Assembly: GCF_026210795.1 (NCBI RefSeq)
Contig: NC_089447.1
Coordinates: forward strand, 1,614,501 to 1,678,500
Source: Rhizophagus irregularis
Taxonomy: Eukaryota > Glomeromycota > Glomeromycetes > Glomerales > Glomeraceae
DNA length: 64,000 nt
Reading direction: 5' to 3'
Part shown: positions 7,237-30,696 of the stretch, one piece after another
Position numbering within the stretch: the stretch's first letter is position 1
Layout: each line of letters opens with the position of its first letter
The notes under the pieces: generated by a model
What the model saw: only the letters and a program-made list of their open reading frames with translations
What the model was told of the DNA's origin: nothing
The model's database searches: none
Position numbers and translations under genes: made by a program

Positions 7237-7532
7237 TCATCTCTTTTATTTTTATTTTCATCTCTTTTATTTTTATTTTCATCTCTTTTATTTTTATTTT
7301 CATCTCTTTTATTTTTATTTTCATCTCTTTTATTTTTATTTTCATCTCTTTTATTTTTATTTTCATCTCTTTTATTTTTATTTTCATCTCTTTTATTTTT
7401 ATTTTCATCTCTTTTATTTTTATTTTCATCTCTTTTATTTTTATTTTCATCTCTTTTATTTTTATTTTCATCTCTTTTATTTTTATTTTCATCTCTTTTA
7501 TTTTTATTTTCATCTCTTTTATTTTTATTTTT
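7237..7532. repeat. Minisatellite, 21-bp unit, about 14 near-perfect copies
   Basis: The unit is CTTTTATTTTTATTTTCATCT, repeated head to tail without visible divergence. Because 21 is divisible by 3, and because the unit lacks stop codons in several frames, long open frames arise on both strands: SSLLFLF repeats forward and KIKIKEM repeats in reverse. These are artefacts of the array and not genes. The uniformity suggests recent expansion or homogenisation. Confidence 0.92.
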
Positions 7533-7587
7533 ATAGATAAACCTGTCAAATATTTTAAATATTTAAAAAAATTCATACTATTAAATA

Positions 7588-9609
7588 CAGTCAATTCCCT
7601 CCATAGTCACTTCCGTTATAATTACATTCTACTATATAATCATACCAGTTGAATGTTCAAAACACTTTATTATTAAAATCTATCCTATATAATCACAATC
7701 TATTTATAGTTACTATCACACCTATCTTCAAAAATCTTATATTAAAAAGAACCGTTTATAATCACAGTTATATAAAGATATATTAAATAACTTGACATCT
7801 AATAATCGTACAAAGATGTACCATAGCTTGTTAGAATTGTCTCATTGAGATAAATCGAATGGTGGTAGTTTTATCCTTTATGATCTCTGGCTGATGAGTT
7901 ATTTAACAAAATGTTTAACATCAGCATTATAATATTTCTTAATTTATGTTTACTGTGCCATTTAACATTTTACTAAATTTCTCAGTACCTAGTGATTTTA
8001 AAAAGACAATTAATAGCTCGTTGGAATCGCCTCATCAAGGTGAATTGAATGGTGATAAACTCATCTCTCTGTGATCATCAATATTAACGAAGTTATTACT
8101 TAAAAACTATTTAATATTTTTTAATTTTAGAAATTGATTTGGTGATTGGATTTCGTTATATTTTATACCATTAGAACCGTTTCATCAAGACGAATCAAAT
8201 GGCAGTAAAATCATCTCTCTACAATTAATATTGGCAGAGTTACAATACAATAAAGTTTTAAGTATAATTCTGACTAAAGCTCCGAACGGTTCGGGCTAAA
8301 CCGGGGAACCAATCCGAAACCGGCTCAAAATTCGGTTCAGTTTGGTTCGGGTATTAGAACCAAAAAACCAGCGGTTCGGTTCAGTTTAATCCGATTTTTT
8401 ATAAAAATGCGAAAAATCGAATAGCCGGCCATCTAGTAATCATACAAAGTCGAGCCATATATCATTGGATTCGTCTCGACGAGACGCGTCGAATGGTGGT
8501 AAGATCATGTCTCTAGCATCGATAGATCACACATTAACCCACGCTAAATGATTTATAAATAATTGGAATTAGCAAGCTATCTATCGGTGCTAGAGACATG
8601 ATCTTAGCACCATTTGACGCGTCTCAGTGAGACGAATCCAATGAATATAAATTCGTTCGTGTACGACTACTGGATTGCGAATAATATCAAGTTTCGCATT
8701 TTTTAAAATTTTCGAGCGTTAAAAATTAAAAATTCCGATACATGAATTTATTCGTCGTCCAATGGTCATACAAATATGAATTAGGACTCATTGGATTCGT
8801 CTCAATGAGACGAGTCAAATGGTGGTAAGATCACGTCTCTAGCACTGATAGATAGCTTGCTAATGCCAATTTTTTATAAATCATTTAGCGTGAATTAACT
8901 TATGATCTATTGATGCTAGAGACATGATCTCACCACCATTCGACTCGTCTCATTGAGACGAATCCAATGAGTCCTAATCCATATTTGTATGACCATTGGA
9001 CGACGAATAAATTCATGTATCAGAATTTTTAATTTTTAACGCTCGAAATTTTTAAAAAAATGCGAAACTTGATATTATTCGCAATCCAGTGGTCGTACAC
9101 AAACGAATTTATATTCATTGGATTCGTCTTACTGAGACGCGTCGAATGGGTCTAAGATCATGTCTCTAGCACCGATAGATAGCTTGCTAATTCCAATTAT
9201 TTATAAATCATTTAGCGTGGGTTAACGTGTGATATATCGATGCTAGAGACATAATCTTACCGCCATTCGACGCGTCTCGTCGAGACGAATCCAATGATAT
9301 ATGGCACGAATTTATACGATCACTAGATGGCCGGCTATTCGATTTTTCGCATTTTTATAAAAATCGGATTAAACTGAACCGAACTGCCGGTTTTTCGGTT
9401 CGGTTCTTACGGATTTCGGCTCTAATCCGAACTGTCTATAATCCGGACCAAACCGACTCATTCGGAGCTTTAATTCTGACCAAAATTATGTTAAATTTTT
9501 GGCCAGAATTATGATATACAAATATAAGAAATTTTTTATATAGTCACATCTCTTCATAATTATCAGATATAAATTGTCCCAAATGTGTAACTATAAAGAG
9601 AGTTGACTG
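7588..9609. mobile_element. Non-autonomous mariner/pogo-like element, copy 1 (TA target site)
   Basis: It starts CAGTCAATTCCCTCCATAGTCAC, and the right end reverse-complements to CAGTCAACTCTCTTTATAG. It is flanked by TA at 7586-7587 and 9610-9611, as for Tc1/mariner/pogo elements. There is no transposase. The body contains divergent tandem units with the motif GAATCGCCTCATCAAGG...GAATTGAATGG. It is interrupted at 8275-9472 by a hAT-type palindrome; without that, the element is about 0.8 kb. It is the sister of the element at 22644-30696, to which it aligns along both ends. Confidence 0.88.
8275..9472. mobile_element. hAT-type foldback element: 1.2-kb palindrome with 8-bp TSD
   Basis: Two ~590-bp arms are inverted copies of each other around about 8873, near-identical by eye except close to the outer ends. 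The termini TAAAGCTCCGAA...TTCGGAGCTTTA fit the hAT consensus (Y-A-R-N-G). An exact 8-bp duplication, ATTCTGAC, lies at 8267-8274 and 9473-9480. The sister mariner copy at about 30559-30577 shows the unoccupied site (TAATTCGGCTAAAATTATG). Each arm contains a smaller palindrome (centres near 8548 and 9195) with TTCGTCTC...GAGACG and TCTCTAGCA...TGCTAGAGA, so the structure is hierarchical. No ORF. It is far richer in CpG than its surroundings. Confidence 0.92.
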
Positions 9610-22417: not shown

Positions 22418-22925
22418 TCATATCTTATAATAAATATCAAAACAAAATTATTAAAATAATTTTAACAATATCATATAACCATTAATAATATTATTATGAT
22501 ATAGTTTCAGATATTATTTAATATTATTTTAATAATATTATATAGTAGTTATATTATGGTGATATTATATAATAATATCAAAATAATATTATTTTAATAT
22601 TAAAATGATATTATTTAGAATAATGAAATTTCTATTATGATTACAGTCAACTCCCTCTATAGTCACTCCCGTTATAGTCACATTCTACTATATAGTCACA
22701 CCAGTTGAATGTTCAAAACACTTTATTATTAAAATCTATCCTATATAGTCACAATCTATCTATAGTCACTATCACACCTATCCTCAAAAATCTTATATTA
22801 AAAAGAACCGTTTATAATCACAGTTATATAAAGAATATATTAAATAACTTGGCATCTAATAATCGTACAAAGATGTATCATAGCTTATTAAGAATTCTCT
22901 ACTCGAGACGAATCGAATGGCGGTA

Positions 22926-24305
22926 GATTATTTCTATAACACGGCAAGTATTCTATCCCATTGCCTCTTATGAGACTAATCTCGGGTCTGCGTTCCTATC
23001 ATCTTCACCGCAACCATTATACCGATGTTTAATTATCAGGCAATCGCACCACTATAGAAGACATCCCCTATCGGGCCATTTTAGGCTGATCTGAAGCTGG
23101 GTACACGCCGCCTACTCATCCTATACCCATTGCATGATACTGATACTCAATTTATTTAACGACCTTTAGAGAGCATCTACTTTCAGGGATGGACTTTTGA
23201 CAGGTAACATCAACCATCTAAGCACTTTCCATACCACCATTTTAGGTACTAAGTCTCACTCAAAGCGCCACTACAGCCCGCGATTACCTAGCACTGATAG
23301 TACAGTTGTTTTTACCCCAAGTGGTATACTTTGTAAGTACACTGGACAGAAAAGTAGCAGGCTTCGGTCAGGATCACCCCTTATGGCGGGTATTAACCAC
23401 CAGGCATCACTAACCAAGATCCCAAGAAGTGTAATCGAACCCCATAACCATGCTACCTGTTCTGTCTGCAGAAACAGCGCTTGGATTTGATTGACAACAG
23501 AAGGTCGAAGGCTATCGTAAGAGCATTGCGCACCTCGAACTTTACCGTCAGGACGACCATCTAGCAAAAGTTACTGGACCCCAAGTGGTATCGTGGAGTG
23601 ACCACCCAGACAGGAAGTCCCCACCAGGTATAGTAGTGACGCAAAGACAGGGACTGCACGCATACAATGGCCTCGTAGGGAACGTTAGAAGGGCCAATTG
23701 TGACCGCTTAGTTGAAATGTGCGGCCTACAACGTACGCAATTCAACCGTGATGCAGTCCAACTACACTAATCCCTGTACCTTCACGCTATTGGTTGTAGC
23801 GTCCGCAGTAAAATTCTTTTTATTTCCGTGGTTATGGGAATAGTTTTATCCTTTTCTTGTGCAAACAGTCTTATGACTTTATTTTTATTTATATTTTAAC
23901 ATCGAAAATTCAAACGAACAATATTACAAAAATAAGAAAATAAACTAATAAAAATAAAAAGAGTAGCTTCACGACTCATACAAGTAAAGAAATCTAAACT
24001 AAAATAAAATTAAAGCAAAGAAAAACTAGACTATTACAGAATCGCATACCCCAACTTTACCCGAAGTGCCAGTGTAAGTCAACTATCCAACATCCAAAAA
24101 TCCAGTCCGTTACGTAAAGAAATCATAAGAGATTGAACTGTTAAGCGGCGCAGAAAATCCAAGTGCGAGATCCATGATCCACCCCGAATTATAGAAGAGG
24201 ATATCCAAGAAATCCAGGAATCCTGAGAAACTGTCGCCAAAGAAGAGTTATTTGTATGTGAAGAAGAAACAATAGGAGAAGAATTTATAGATGAGCCACG
24301 TAATT
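22926..24305 (-). mobile_element. 5'-truncated LINE-like retroelement (3' end), antisense
   Basis: Inserted in the mariner-like element: the host sequence in copy 1 runs uninterrupted as GGTGGTAGTTTTATCC. Read on the minus strand, it starts with the tail of an open frame (about 72 codons, Ser-rich, with SQDSWISWISSSIIRGGSW and HLDFLRRL) ending at a stop at 24079-24081. A ~1.1-kb 3' untranslated region follows. The last ~0.85 kb (22965-23815) is closely similar, in inverted orientation, to the body of the neighbouring SINE-like element. LINE identity is inferred from the 5' truncation and the shared 3' tail; the reverse transcriptase itself is not present. Several open frames in both orientations at 23197-23770 are incidental to the GC-richer composition. 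Confidence 0.55.
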
Positions 24306-24457
24306 TAGTTTTATCCTTTTCTGATCACTGGCTGATGAGTTATTCAACAAAATGTTAAACATCGGCATTATAATATTTTTTGATTTACGTTTACTGCGCC
24401 ATTTAACATTTTGCTAGATTTCTCAGTACCTAGTAATTGTAAAAAGACGATTTATAA

Positions 24458-24550
24458 GGGTTGATCACCCTATCTCAGTGGTTAGTCACTGAGACCCTCA
24501 TTAAGCCTCGAGTATGGTGAGGTCGCAGGTTCAATTCCACTGATCACTCG
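24458..24550 (+). promoter_or_regulatory. tRNA-like head with Pol III A and B boxes
   Basis: TATCTCAGTGGTTAGTCAC resembles the A box and GGTTCAATTCC the B box (consensus GGTTCRANTCC). Spacing is tRNA-like with a somewhat enlarged anticodon region. I do not assign it as a functional tRNA, because the cloverleaf is imperfect and it is joined to a retroelement body. Confidence 0.6.
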
Positions 24551-25254
24551 GAAATTAAACGAATTTTACTGCGGACGCTACAACCAATAGCGCAAGGACA
24601 GGATTAGCGTAGTGGACTGCATCAGGTGAATTAGGGCGCTGCACGGTTAGGCCGCACATTTCAACTAAGGTCATGGTGTCTTTCTAACGTTCCCTATGGA
24701 GGCTATTGGCATGTGCGCAGTCCTGTCCCTTGAGGTCACTACTATACCTCGAGGACTTCCCGTCCAGGTGGTCACTCCACGATACCACTTGGGGTCAGTA
24801 ATGGCTAGTTGGTCGTCCTAGATGGTAAAGTTGAGGGTGCAATGTCTTAGTGGTAGTTAGACCTTCTGTTAGGTCTTAGGCCAATCAAGGTGTTCGTGCG
24901 CAGAACAGGTAGCATGGTTATGGGGTTCGGTCCCTACTCTTTGGGTGGCGATTGGTGATCCCCGCGGTGGTTGATACCCACCATAAGGGGTGATTCTGGA
25001 CAGATGCCTGCTACTTCCTGTCTGAGTGGTCACTACAAAGTAGTGGTCCGATCCGTGGATGCATTATCCGGATATCTGTACGGATATCTGGATATCCGGA
25101 TGGCAGTTTTATATGACAGATAAAAAATTGCGGATGTGCAGATATCTATAGATATCTGCAGATATCCGTAATCTGCATATGTCATGTGAAATAATATGCA
25201 TAATCACCTATATATTGCATCATTTTTTTAAATAACCATAAAACACGTTACGCA

Positions 25255-28200
25255 TTGTCTATTTATCTTTGCGCGACTGCGACTAGAAAAAAATGTCTAG
25301 TGATAGGTTTGAAGAAATTCCGCAAGCTTAAGACCTTGAAGTTGAAGAAGCTTCGAGATAAGCATGGATCAAAGAGCTTACCATTAAAATGGAAAAAACC
25401 AATTTCACATGTAATTGAGTTAGAATCGGATACTGATACAAGTGGCCGGCAGCAGATAGCTAAGAGTAGAAAGTATAATAAAAATAATAAAAACTCAGAA
25501 AAAATTGAGTTAAATAAAATAACCAACCAGCTAGTATTAATTCCAAATGCAAAACCATTAGGGCAAAGTTGGATATGGGGATATTTCGATCACCCTATGA
25601 AAAAAGTCTGTGTGATTTTTGTTGAAAAATCATTCAATTAAATTCACTACGATTTCTGTATATTTGACCATACAATAATTGTGCTAAAAATTGCAATAAA
25701 TCACACAATTATTGCATGGTAATTCGTTCAATAACTATCCTATTTTTGACCTGAATTTATACAATTATTGTGTGATTTTTGAGCCAAATTTTAGGCCATA
25801 TTTTAGGAATTATAGGTTAAATTTTACAGTAATAACAGGCAATTTATAAAGTGAAATTATGAATTTTTATTGACTTAAAATATAAAAAATTACACAATAT
25901 TTCATAAATAAAATACTAAATTTGATATAATCATAAATATAAAAATTTGTAAGAAAATAAAATAAAATAAAGTATTTTGGTAACATCAAAGTAAATTAGT
26001 AGTATCAAAGAAGAAAGTAAATTATTAGTGTAAGTAAATTATTAGTATTAAATAAAAAAGTATGAAGTTAGTGAAGAAAGCAAATTAGTAGTGTTAAAAA
26101 GTAAATTATTAGTGTTAGTAATAAAAAAGTATGAAGTTGGTGAAGAAAGCAAATTAGTAGTGTTAAAAAGTAAATTATTAGTGTTAGTAATAAAAAAAAA
26201 AGTATGAAGTTAGTGAAGAAAGCAAGTTAGTAACATTAAAATGTAAAAAGTTAGGAAAATGAAAAGATAAAGAACACAAGTTTTTCTTACCTGATATTTT
26301 AAAAGAAAGTTGAAGAAAAGTTAAAAGGTTAAAAAAACATAAACAAAAACATTTCGCGTCGTCATATTTATTTTGACGATCAGATCACGTGATCAACATA
26401 TATAATGATTTTTACCGCATAATTCTGGCCAAATTATAATTCCGGTCAGAACTAATTGTGTAACCTAATAAAAAGTTTTTGACTTTTTTTTAGTTACAAG
26501 ATTATACAAAAATTTCACCAATAGGTCCAGAAGATGCCCGTTTATAAGCAAATATGCAGTTGAATTTTGTGTAACCTTACTGCATAAATCACTCTACTTA
26601 GGAAAATCCATTTGTAATGGTTAAAAGTGGTCTATTTGACCCTAAAAGTGGTCAAATGTAACCATACAGGTAAGATGGAAAGTAGTATAGTAGGATTACC
26701 CAAAAATTGCTTTCCGTATCCTAAATTTAAGTCTATTTTCAAGTTGTACAATAATCACAATTTTTATTGTACAAAAATTGAATGTTTTCTGTATCCTAAA
26801 TTTAAGTTGTATAAAGATCACACAAAAATTGAACATTTTCTATATCCTAAATTTAAGTTGTACAAAAATTGCATACTTTTAATATGCTATGAAAAACTTC
26901 ATAGCTATTTTTATCCAAAAATCTGCAATAATTGTACAATTTCCACACGGACTTGAACAAATATTGTACAAAAATTGGATGATTTTTTTTCATAGGGTCA
27001 GTATAAACCAGTTGGACAATACAAAAGAATAGTAAGGTGTTTAGCTCAAGTTTAACGAAAGAATGGTGCAAAACAATGTGGACATTTTATGGGTTCTGAT
27101 AATTCCACTGGCAATTTTATTGCCCATCTTGCTACACATCGAATTACTGAAGAAAGTCATAAAAGAAAGATGAATGAGGTACAAAATAATGGTCAGTTAT
27201 CACAACTTCGTATAGATGAAATAATACGGAATAATCCAGATATTAAAAATAACCGAGACCGAAAATTTGTTGGAATCTTGATTAAGGATAATCGACCAAT
27301 TAGTATATGCAATGACGAAGGGTTTAGCGAGTTCATTCATGAATTTGACCCAAATTATCGATTTCCAAGTGATAAAACAATTCAACAATTACTTGCTGAA
27401 GCATATAATCAAATTAAAACTGTCTTAACTAAAATATTTAGCGAAAATGTTATTTTCTGCTCTATAACAACAGACCTATAGACAGCCCGAAGTTGACTTG
27501 GATACATTGGCGTTACATGCTCTTTTATCAATAATAATTTTGAGTTTTGTGAAGTGATCTTATCAATTCAATATGTGCCTTACCCTCATACCGGTGATAA
27601 TATTTGTAATGTTTTACGTGATATTATCTCCAATTGGAATCTAACTGGCAAGGTACTTTCAATGACAACTGATAATGGATCAAATATGGTCTGCGCTGGG
27701 AAACTAATGGGTGAACTTACACGACTCCCATGTGCAGCTCACACCCTTCAACTAGTTGTGGGAAAAGGTTTACTCCTGCCGAAGTTTTAATTGCAAGGGC
27801 CAAAAGACTGATAAATTTTTTTACAACGCCCAAACAAACGGAAAAACTTCTAGAGATTCAAAAAAGCACCTATTGTTCCAATAATGAGGCGAGTAAATTG
27901 TTGAAATTTAATTTAGTATATCTATTTACACATATTTTTAATTACAACTGTAATAATTTCATCTTAATTTTCGTTAAATTTTATAAACTAAGTAATATTT
28001 ATTTTTAATTTTTTAATTTATAATTTATATCCCATAGTTTAAAATTATTATAGAATACTTTGTAACTTAAATAATTTTTTCTAAAAAAGAAATTAAATTA
28101 AACAATTTTATTTAATAAAATTAATTGTATTGGCTAATTACACAATTTACTAATAAAACTTAATGCGATTCTATACTATTATAGAATTTGGATAAAAATT

Positions 28201-29213
28201 ATGAGTACCTTCGAATTATTGCTGACGTGGAAACGTGTTGGAACTCCAGCTATCTTGCATGGAAACGCTTATTAAAAATTAAAGATCTTATTGATGTTTT
28301 GGCGTCTCACTTGATGATTGATCCTAATACGCGACGAGATGGAAAACGATTAAAAGATATAAATCTAACTGATGATGAATGGCAAGCAATGAATAAACTA
28401 GTAAATATCTTGGAGGATTTTGCTGGGGCAACTGAATATCTAGGTGGAAGCAATTATACAACAATTAGTCTAATGTATAGTCTTTTGGCAGTAATTAGTA
28501 ATAAAATGATACCTGATGACTCTAATGTGGAAGTTATAGATCTAACTAGCCCGAATACTGCCTTTGATGATGATGTTGGTTATGAGGATGCCCCGGAGGA
28601 TGAGATTACTCAGCAACCTAAACGCAGAAAAATTAACATTAATACTCCACAAAATTGTTTTGAACTCGAAAAACGTGTTAAAGCAGCATTATACCAATCT
28701 ATTAATCATTATTGGGAAGTTCCACAAGAGCGAGGGAATGCTGGCTGCTTTGTTAGATCCACGATTCAAGGATTTAGAATTTGCCTCTGAAACATTGCGT
28801 CTTCAAACTCATGAACAATTAAAAGATGCCTATAAAAATATGAAAATCTTAACTAATGAAAGCCAGGGAGGCTGAATCGAGCCAACTTCGTCAAATTCAT
28901 TGTTGGCAAGAATGTTTAAAAATAGTCACACTTACGTTGATGAAGTGACTAATTATTTGGCTCTGCCCAAGATTCATTCTTGATGATTGCCCTTTATTAT
29001 GGTGGAAAACTAATAAAGCCCGGTTTCCAATATTATCAAAGTTAGCAAGAAAGTACTTGGCGATTCCTGCCACTTCTACTCCAAGTGAGAGACTTTTTAG
29101 CGAAGCTGGTAATGTTGTGACCATAAAAAGAACACAATTATTGCCAAATACATTGGAAAATTTGGTTTTTTGTAAAAAAAATTGCAAACTTAGTTGGGGG
29201 AGTTTTTCCATTA
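25255..29213 (+). pseudogene. hAT transposase, BED finger plus hATC domain, broken
   Basis: Catalytic protein of the 4.45-kb hAT. The N-terminal basic region leads into a BED-type zinc-finger start (SWIWGYFD, 25567-25590). After the inserted element the finger resumes (QYKPVGQYKRIVRC..., QCGHFMG, NFIAHLATH). The RNase-H-like core follows: SITTDL before 27481, LSMTTDNGSNMV at 27657, LPCAAHTLQLVVGKGL near 27727 and VETCWNSSYLAWKRLL at 28229. Then come LLDPRFKDLEF and the hATC dimerisation domain (SKLARKYLAIPATSTPSERL, FSEAGNVV) up to the stop near 29213. Breaks: an in-frame stop in the finger, a stop at 27481, a frameshift near 28740, further stops around 28870-28980, and a ~290-nt AT-rich interruption at 27897-28186 that may be an intron. 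Not functional as it stands. Confidence 0.88.
25593..26997. mobile_element. 1.4-kb TIR element in the BED finger, 3-bp TSD
   Basis: Inverted ends CCCTATGAAAAAA on both sides, with TCA at 25590-25592 and 26998-27000. Removing the element plus one TCA restores an open reading from SWIWGYFD into QYKPVGQYKRIV, which shows the insertion point exactly. The interior has ~70-bp tandem units at about 26030-26230 (AAATTATTAGTGTTAGTAAT, GAAGTTAGTGAAGAAAGC). It also has a TATCCTAAATTTAAGTTGTA repeat at about 26705-26870. No transposase; the superfamily is uncertain, since a 3-bp target would suit PIF/Harbinger-like or CACTA-like elements. Confidence 0.82.
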
Positions 29214-29844
29214 AGTAATACTTCAGAATAGTTAATAAATAATAATTAATATGTAATTAAAGTATAATATACAAAGCTATAAATAAATAAAGTGACATTA
29301 AAGAAATTTAAAGCAAGTAAATAAGATTTTTATTAAATTTGTTTGAAAAATTTTTTTTATTTATATTATCCGTTATCTGTTACAGATTTATCCAGATTTG
29401 TTCAATTTTTCACGGATAGTCATCCGTATCCGTAACATGACTCACGGATTAACTGTTTACGGATAAACAGATATCCGGATCAGACCACTACTACAAAGTA
29501 TACCACTTGGGGTAAACAACTGTACTATCAGTTATACGCTAGGTATTCAGGCTGTAAGTGGCTTTGAATGAGACCTTGTACCTAAAATGGTGGTATGGAA
29601 GGGTACTAGATGGTTGATGTTACCTGTCGAAAGTCCTCTATGAAAGTAAGTACTCTCTAAAGGTCGTAAAATAAATTGAGTACCAGTATCATGCAATGGA
29701 TTAAGGATGAGTAGGCGGCGTGTACCTAGCTTCAGATCAGCCTATAAAGGCCCGATGGGGGATGTCTTCTATAGTGGTGCTGTTACCTAAGGAATTAAGT
29801 ACTCGGTATAATGGTTGCCCATTGAAGATGATAGGACACAGACC

Positions 29845-30088
29845 TAAGGTTGCTTGCTGAAACCTAGGGGTTTAGGCAAGATGGCGTTTCGCCGAAAAGC
29901 GAAATTCTGCCGAAACTATATTAAAGTTATATTAAAAAACTGGCGAAACTTTGGAGAAAGGCGAAACTGCCAAAACTTATTATAAATGCCGAAACTGCTG
30001 AAACTCTGGCAAAACTATAATAAATCTATAGTAAAATTTTGACAAAACTAATCGTAGGATTTTGAAGAGGTTTAGACAAGCAACCTTA
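29845..30088. mobile_element. 244-bp hAT MITE, exact 8-bp TSD
   Basis: Ends TAAGGTTGCTTG...CAAGCAACCTTA fit the hAT terminal consensus. The duplication CACAGACC lies at 29837-29844 and 30089-30096. The interior repeats GGCGAAACT/GCCGAAACT-type words about eight times. It interrupts the 3' part of the SINE-like element; the LINE-like copy shows the uninterrupted sequence (CGCAGACCCGAGATTAG, inverted). Confidence 0.92.
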
Positions 30089-30696
30089 CACAGACCCGAA
30101 ATTAGTCTCATAAGAGGCAATGGGTGGTCTGGCCGTAAACATAGCAAAGTAAAAAAATGATTTATAGCTCGTTAGAATCGCCTCATCGAGACGAATCGAA
30201 TGGTAGTATGCTTATCTCTCTGTGATCAATATTGACAGAGTTATTACTTAAAAACCATTTAATATTTTTTAATTTCGGAAATTGATCTAGTGATTGGATT
30301 TCGATGTATCTTATACCATTAGATTCGTCTCATCAAAACGAATCGAATGGTAGTAAGATCGTCTTTCTAGGATCAATATTGGCAGAGTTATTACACAAAA
30401 ACCATTAATATTTTTTTAATTTCGAAAATTAATCTAGTGATTGGATTTCGACGTATTTTATACCATTAGAACCGTCTCATCAAGACGAATCGAATGGCAG
30501 TAAGATCATCTCTCTACGATTAATATTGGCGAAGTTACGATACAATAAAGTTTTAAGTATAATTCGGCTAAAATTATGTTAATTTTTGGCCAGAATTATG
30601 ATATACAAATATAAGAAATTTTTTATATAGTCACATCTCTTTATAATCACCAAATATGGACTGTCCCAAATGTGTGACTATAAAGAGAGTTGACTG

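Follow-up and report, generated by a model that had tools for sequence, protein, structure and literature searches.

In this work we analysed a window of 64,000 nucleotides from Rhizophagus irregularis (assembly GCF_026210795.1, contig NC_089447.1, positions 1,614,501 to 1,678,500; window coordinates below count from its first letter). We focused on the locus at 22639-30658, where two copies of a short interspersed element with a tRNA-like head (SINE-A) and a fragment of a long interspersed element (LINE-A) lie within an abundant DNA transposon with terminal inverted repeats (TIRs), called the host element here. Insertions of both families were found at short, defined sites of this host throughout the genome, and a second SINE/LINE pair, SINE-B and LINE-B, was found at another site of the same element.

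Features of the locus

The host element has ends TACAGTCAACTC and 147-bp internal repeats. It carries site 1 (AAAAGGATAAAAC) and site 2 (AAAAGACGATTTA), which face outward from its core and are 134 bp apart in the copies L047-L050, each of which contains both, as well as site B (TAATCACCAAATAT) near its terminus. L047, empty at site 1, served as the reference for the host parts of the window.

The locus begins with the right part (TR) of the host, containing the target downstream of site 1 (22639-22929, minus strand, 97% identity to L047). It is followed by a 5'-truncated SINE-A copy (22957-23841, minus strand) that covers positions 77-954 at 88% identity to the consensus; its head is missing, its last ~26 bases (22930-22956) have diverged, and it begins directly after AAAAGGATAAAACTA. 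A copy of the site-1 target, GAAAAGGATAAAACTA (23842-23857, minus strand, boundaries approximate by 1-2 bp), separates it from a 5'-truncated LINE-A copy (23858-24306, minus strand), which comprises positions 7399-7845 and is 97% identical to full-length LINE-A. The host core comes next (24306-24456, minus strand, 97% identity to L047); its left end holds site 1 and its right end site 2 (24440-24456), which reads TAAAAAGACGATTTATA on the plus strand.

Beyond site 2 stands another SINE-A copy, on the plus strand, whose tRNA-like head (24457-24550) has an A-box-like match and a B box. Its positions 1-585 (24457-25040, plus strand, 91% identity to the consensus) are interrupted by a hAT-type DNA transposon of 4.45 kb (25041-29490, plus strand) with ends TAGTGGTC, a match to PF05699 at 28949-29215 (E = 6.5e-20) and an 8-bp duplication, CTACAAAG, at 25033-25040 and 29491-29498. 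The middle part of SINE-A, about 575-926 (29491-29844, plus strand, 93% identity), is separated by an unstranded 243-bp TIR element (29845-30087, ends TAAGGTTGCTTG, likely 8-bp duplication CACAGACC) from the 3' end, positions 918-980 (30088-30149, plus strand, 97% identity), which terminates in GCAAAG. The 3' copy of the site-2 target duplication, TAAAAAAATGATTTATA (30150-30166, plus strand), equals 24440-24456 at 15 of 17 bases. The left part of the host with its 147-bp tandem repeats (30149-30658, minus strand, 95% identity to L047) closes the locus and bears an unoccupied site B at its end, at about 30644-30657. The two SINE-A copies lie in opposite orientation because sites 1 and 2 are on opposite strands of the host.

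The initial annotation, made from the sequence alone, had described a tRNA-like head with its two boxes and a close inverted similarity between the body behind it and a "LINE-like fragment"; sequence comparison bore out both, with the head at 24457-24550 and a strong inverted similarity to 22957-23841. Its delimitation of the elements has to be revised: the "LINE-like fragment", put at 22965-23815, belongs to the headless SINE-A copy at 22957-23841 (positions 77-954) and is not a LINE, the single element proposed at 24457-30158 is a SINE-A copy split by the hAT-type insertion and the 243-bp TIR element, and the "A-rich tails" are target-site sequence and not tails of the elements. A partner LINE does lie beside the SINE, namely the LINE-A fragment at 23858-24306, which is not the piece that had been named. 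Site specificity, nested arrays and the second SINE/LINE pair formed no part of that annotation.

SINE-A, a dispersed family with a tRNA-like head

The genome searched comprises 146.7 Mb in 32 contigs. With a body probe, 40 of 527 first-look candidates were scored and gave 46 matches; with a head probe, 40 of 364 were scored and gave 40. In all, 20 loci were fetched through head matches and 20 through body matches. The body adjoined the head in all 20 head-picked loci, and the head was present in 18 of the 20 body-picked ones (L024 and L031 were without it). The fetched loci yielded 49 complete units with a consensus of 980 bp, and the proposed tRNA-headed SINE of ~1 kb is indeed a genome-wide repeat. 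Such a length, which had been thought unusual, is not exceptional for fungi, given the 900-bp egh1/EGH24 of Erysiphe graminis (PMC5063351).

Forty-eight of the 49 units form one cluster with a mean pairwise identity of 0.933, the unit in L020 being more diverged. The consensus is non-coding (longest open frame 89 amino acids, on the reverse strand), and 297 SINE-A 3' ends were counted genome-wide with a 24-mer allowing up to 2 mismatches. For this and the other genome-wide pattern counts (SINE-A and LINE-A 3' ends, empty sites) the reversed-pattern control gave 0 each time. SINE-A is thus dispersed, non-coding and flanked by target duplications, as expected of a tRNA-derived SINE, and internal boxes for RNA polymerase III (Pol III) are found in most heads, with an A-box-like match in 46 of 49 and a B box in 42. 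The two arms of the would-be acceptor stem vary together (GGTC/GACC in 35 units, GATC/GATC in 8, 6 unreadable, n = 49); this is one change inherited by a subfamily and counts as at most one event.

Over its whole length the consensus has a B box at 71 and another at 468; its A-box-like matches number six, with none on the minus strand. Among 2000 dinucleotide shuffles, 1990 were without a B box, 10 had one and none had two; more than four A-box-like matches occurred in none of them. The A-box-like pattern was modelled on the SINE-A head itself, and its count in the body is after the fact. We read SINE-A as a putative composite of tRNA-related modules. It also appears to hold an internal duplication of roughly 42 bp, at about 295-340 and 552-597 of the consensus (CTTCCTGTCCGRGTGGTCAC...ACCACTTGGGGT).

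Several candidate signals were discarded. The 131 overlapping calls made by ARAGORN at a loosened threshold were disregarded, one miRNA match of Rfam on the window stretch was taken as chance, and Pol III terminators, which had looked clearly depleted when compared with mononucleotide shuffles (mean 3.9), no longer did so when compared with dinucleotide shuffles.

Insertion at defined sites

In the annotated loci, 63 of 71 SINE-A 3' ends were followed by site 1 (up to 2 mismatches) and 7 by site 2, the remaining flank being too short. A separate, exact pattern gave 248 SINE-A 3' ends joined to AAAAGGATAAAA genome-wide, and 7 joined to AAAAGACGATT, site 2. Copies at site 2 were located in L001, L002, L003, L014 and L015 and in the window (24440-24456), several of them with the GATC head. 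With a probe of the joined outer flanks, all 40 candidates scored (954 at first look) showed 99-100% identity over 122 or more of its 124 bases, and the short empty site was found at 264 places in the genome with up to 3 mismatches.

The longest exact match between the flanks measured 14-16 bp in 34 of the 49 complete SINE-A copies (range 8-18). Private variants of the target recur in some arrays: GAAAAGAATAAAAC stands three times in L020, GAAAAGCATAAAAC three times in L023, and GGAAAGGATAAAAC at 6 of the 7 joints of the L044 array, which contains four SINEs and two LINE 3' ends. Recurrence of rare target variants within arrays shows that the target is duplicated and that these bases are not a tail borne by the element.

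Head-to-tail arrays

SINE and LINE copies stack head to tail with a copy of the site between them. Among same-strand neighbours at most 25 bp apart, counted 5' to 3', we found SINE-SINE 36 times, LINE-SINE 20 times, SINE-LINE 6 times and LINE-LINE once. Host neighbours within the same distance were left host-SINE (18), left host-LINE (6), SINE-right host (19) and LINE-right host (4); the left and right host parts met without an insertion in 6 cases, and two left parts met in 1. At the target sites 86 distinct SINE 5' junctions were distinguished, of which 58 belong to full-length copies and 28 are truncated at varied positions. Arrays and truncations together are what target-primed reverse transcription would be expected to leave behind when each insertion restores the site for the next.

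Eight of the 28 truncated SINE starts fall between 77 and 125, two of them at or beside position 77, which corresponds to the would-be tRNA A58. Four truncated copies (L024, L044, L049 and the minus-strand one that begins at window position 23841) start at 77-82, at most 5 bases from the T-loop A. This pattern, seen after the fact, is suggestive of arrest of the reverse transcriptase at a structured or modified T-loop base.

LINE-A at site 1

Many SINEs are preceded by sequences that end in AAGACTGTTTGCACAG followed by site 1, and tracing these upstream gave LINE-A. It is 7,845 bp long in the C1 copy; alignments of the C3, C17 and C31 copies to this one start at position 1 or 15 and run to 7843-7845. 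The C1, C3 and C17 copies start in the host element, and the C31 copy directly behind another LINE-A 3' end. The LINE-A proteins match Exo_endo_phos (PF03372), RVT_1 (PF00078) and RNase_H (PF00075), and a stretch of open reading frame 1 (ORF1) in the C3 copy has a match to RRM_1 (E = 0.00023). An endonuclease of the apurinic/apyrimidinic (APE) type and a reverse transcriptase are thus combined in one element, in LINE-A copies as in the C14 copy of LINE-B; PDB matches were obtained with both L1 (E = 5e-18) and R2 (E = 4e-17) and do not distinguish between clades. The initial annotation had suggested looking for full LINEs that encode reverse transcriptase and carry the 3' end of its "LINE-like fragment"; full LINEs do stand at the sites, and they have no significant similarity to the SINE.

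Genome-wide, an exact pattern found 122 LINE-A 3' ends followed by site 1; a looser pattern (up to 2 mismatches), which LINE-B ends also fit, gave 336 LINE 3' ends. In L020, L027 and L054 an extra copy of AAAAGGATAAAAC stands at the LINE-A 5' junction, which could reflect either an RNA start in the upstream target or a 5' duplication during integration.

A second pair at site B

Four loci (L006, L008, L011 and L049) hold a SINE with the same first ~720 bp and another 3' end, inserted at TAATCACCAAATAT; we call it SINE-B. Compared in 60-bp windows with three SINE-B copies, SINE-A showed an identity of 0.82-1.00 up to position 720, except at 241-300 and 541-600 (0.67-0.89), and of 0.32-0.60 beyond it, the differing part being the last ~250 bp. 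A strict pattern found 65 SINE-B 3' ends genome-wide. Forty-six of these were inspected, in 47 rows since one place appeared twice: 43 rows match the site-B pattern, the other four have AATCAACAAATA (3) or AATTACCAAATA (1), and none has site 1.

At site B we also found LINE-B, 8,006 bp long in the C26 copy. The C14 copy has matches to EEP, reverse transcriptase and RNase H and an RRM in ORF1. On C14 the host is followed by SINE-B, LINE-B, a truncated SINE-B and then the host end, and every joint reads AATCACCAAATAT. Between LINE-A and LINE-B, 3.3 kb of mostly coding sequence align at ~70% identity, a further 0.8 kb at 64% and the last 400 bp at 84%.

We then tabulated 3' ends against sites, for the ends matched by the search expressions in the fetched loci, which are not every genomic copy. 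SINE-A ends were at site 1 in 56 cases, at site 2 in 7 and at site B in none (n = 63), and all 45 SINE-B ends were at site B, so that no cross-over between sites occurred among 108 classified SINE 3' ends. All 22 LINE-A ends were at site 1 and all 3 LINE-B ends, a small sample, at site B; each LINE has one defined target among the sampled 3' ends. When ends were counted by alignment to LINE-A, 26 lay at site 1 and 1 at site B; this lone end is most likely that of L008, which is only 84% identical to LINE-A and which we take as LINE-B.

Neither SINE-A nor SINE-B has a significant match in the whole of LINE-A or LINE-B, the best E value being 0.078 (SINE-A with the reverse strand of LINE-A). On these comparisons, what SINE and LINE have in common is the site and not the tail. 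A candidate shared AUAA hairpin (SINE-A GUCUC-AUAA-GAGGC, LINE AGUC-AUAA-GACU) was rejected, being absent from the minimum-energy folds of both LINE ends.

Further insertions in the window

Inside the hAT-type element, window 25580-26999 looks like a further insertion, with inverted ends CCCTATGAAAAAA/TTTTTTCATAGGG and 69-bp tandem repeats; the nesting of the locus thus seems to reach three levels or more. The window holds the host TIR element once more at 7586-9570, where other sequence interrupts it.

Discussion

We hold it to be very probable that SINE-A is a tRNA-derived element of the Pol III type, mobilised by the sequence-specific LINE-A at the site that they share, and that SINE-B and LINE-B form a like pair at site B. 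The LINE-A endonuclease would cut one short site in the abundant TIR element, and LINE-A and SINE-A RNAs, the latter presumably made by Pol III, would both be reverse-transcribed there by target priming. This would yield the target duplication of ~15 bp and frequent 5' truncation, and later insertions would stack into head-to-tail arrays because the duplication restores the site. SINE-B and LINE-B would act alike at the second site of the same TIR element, LINE-B mobilising SINE-B as LINE-A would SINE-A.

A number of results weigh against this reading or narrow it. ARAGORN, run on the window and, at default settings, on the SINE head, predicted a tRNA in neither, and the tRNA-Sec model of Rfam covers both B-box regions only weakly (17 and 16 bits, gathering threshold 47). 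Of 60 listed tRNA matches 40 were compared as candidate parents; the best of these, tRNA-Ser(GCT), scored 36.5, hardly more than the maximum of 36.0 in 100 shuffles. T runs are not depleted in SINE-A, the one observed being the commonest value in dinucleotide shuffles. The seventh joint of L044 differs (GGGAAAAGATAAAAC), and 1.85 kb of unassigned sequence (L044 1218-3069) lies between its first SINE and its first LINE-A 3' fragment. No LINE was seen at site 2 in the fetched loci, where seven sampled SINE-A 3' ends sit; either LINE-A tolerates site 2, or a third LINE exists. The tails, too, behave unlike those of the usual pairs: the best match between SINE-A and LINE-A, the 8-nt TCATAAGA, was reached by 90 of 500 shuffles and that between SINE-B and LINE-B by 493 of 500, and the shared 3' tail of stringent SINE/LINE pairs was not found. 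The fetched loci, moreover, are the best-scoring matches, and their proportions are those of a sample; transcription and transposition are presumed from sequence.

The initial annotation had explained the same locus by a SINE that borrowed ~0.85 kb of a LINE 3' end, a natural reading of the strong inverted similarity between the two window pieces. Both pieces are SINE-A, however, and since neither SINE is significantly similar to the 7,845-bp LINE-A or the 8,006-bp LINE-B, the claim of a shared LINE end falls; the LINEs at these sites are rejected as a source of the SINE body, and we regard such borrowing as almost certainly wrong. It is also very improbable that unequal exchange spread the units as a satellite, or that they were copied as passengers of the host TIR element without retrotransposition. 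The ~993-bp spacing in several arrays would suit exchange, by which some arrays may have grown, but the units are truncated at many different 5' points, a recognisable copy of the target stands behind all 70 SINE 3' ends whose flank is long enough, the arrays alternate between LINE and SINE copies, and single insertions and empty sites both occur.

Within the reading of two SINE/LINE pairs, the question becomes what directs a SINE to its own LINE. SINE-A and SINE-B amount to a swap made by nature: they have head and body in common but differ in 3' module, in LINE and in exact site, both sites lying in one DNA transposon. We infer that the assignment is made either by the 3'-terminal ~250 nt of the SINE or by target sequence that is read through directly behind them. 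The chances seem to us about even that the last ~250 nt act as an addressing module, which would select the partner LINE and thereby the target without sequence similarity to either LINE described here. It is possible, if rather doubtful, that the 3' module is not read at all: the transcript would carry downstream target sequence that anneals to the nicked target, the address being the flank of the source copy, and the LINE would accept any RNA that anneals. Read-through target sequence plays a role in R1-type and SART1 elements. The lack of significant tail sharing between SINE and LINE would agree with it, as would the absence of a T4 run from the first 134 bases from site 1 on, through which a Pol III transcript could continue; the flank travels with the tail, so the distribution of ends over sites fits equally well, and because the two travel together, module and flank are inseparable by sequence alone. 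Read-through leaves unexplained why the 3' 250 bp of SINE-A and SINE-B differ so much when the rest is nearly the same, and in arrays such transcripts would be expected to enter the next unit.

Recognition of a foreign RNA by a LINE is known for few pairs, mostly through common tails or poly(A). Here two SINEs with near-identical 5' three quarters are split between two LINEs and two sites in every sampled case, which places the deciding sequence within ~250 nt plus the flank and makes template choice directly testable. SINE-A and SINE-B would be naturally site-directed, non-autonomous RNAs of about 1 kb, and the arrays are a clear example of LINE and SINE copies piling up at a single site that restores itself.

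Relation to known systems

Tx1L is a site-specific non-LTR (long terminal repeat) retrotransposon found in the Tx1D DNA transposon of Xenopus. As in Tx1L/Tx1D, a LINE has one exact target inside a repeated DNA transposon, here with two LINEs that have a site each. Unlike Tx1L, LINE-A and LINE-B carry an RNase H domain, which is not known from elements of the Tx1 group, and both have a SINE that uses their site.

R2 of the 28S ribosomal DNA is likewise a sequence-specific element with strict target choice (PMC5035012), and target-primed reverse transcription is the accepted mechanism (PMC5035012, PMC3747384). The present LINEs differ from R2, as described there, in their APE-type endonuclease, in a target that is a TIR element and not ribosomal DNA, and in a non-autonomous partner that is a tRNA-headed SINE (PMC5035012). 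With egh1/EGH24 (900 bp) SINE-A has in common that it is a fungal SINE of nearly 1 kb; unlike for SINE-A, site-specific insertion is not mentioned in the part of that report concerned with egh1/EGH24 (PMC5063351). A curated library of Rhizophagus irregularis holds SINE and several LINE families, which can be compared with SINE-A/B and LINE-A/B by description only, as the section concerned gives no sequence, target or pairing (PMC11075540). No target-specific SINE was found in the open literature searched, which did not cover subscription journals. A further likeness is to the SINE/LINE pairs of the stringent type, which share a 3' tail sequence (PMC3747384). As in those pairs, a tRNA-headed SINE would depend here on a particular LINE; unlike them, SINE-A and LINE-A, and SINE-B and LINE-B, have no detectable common tail and share exactly the target site.

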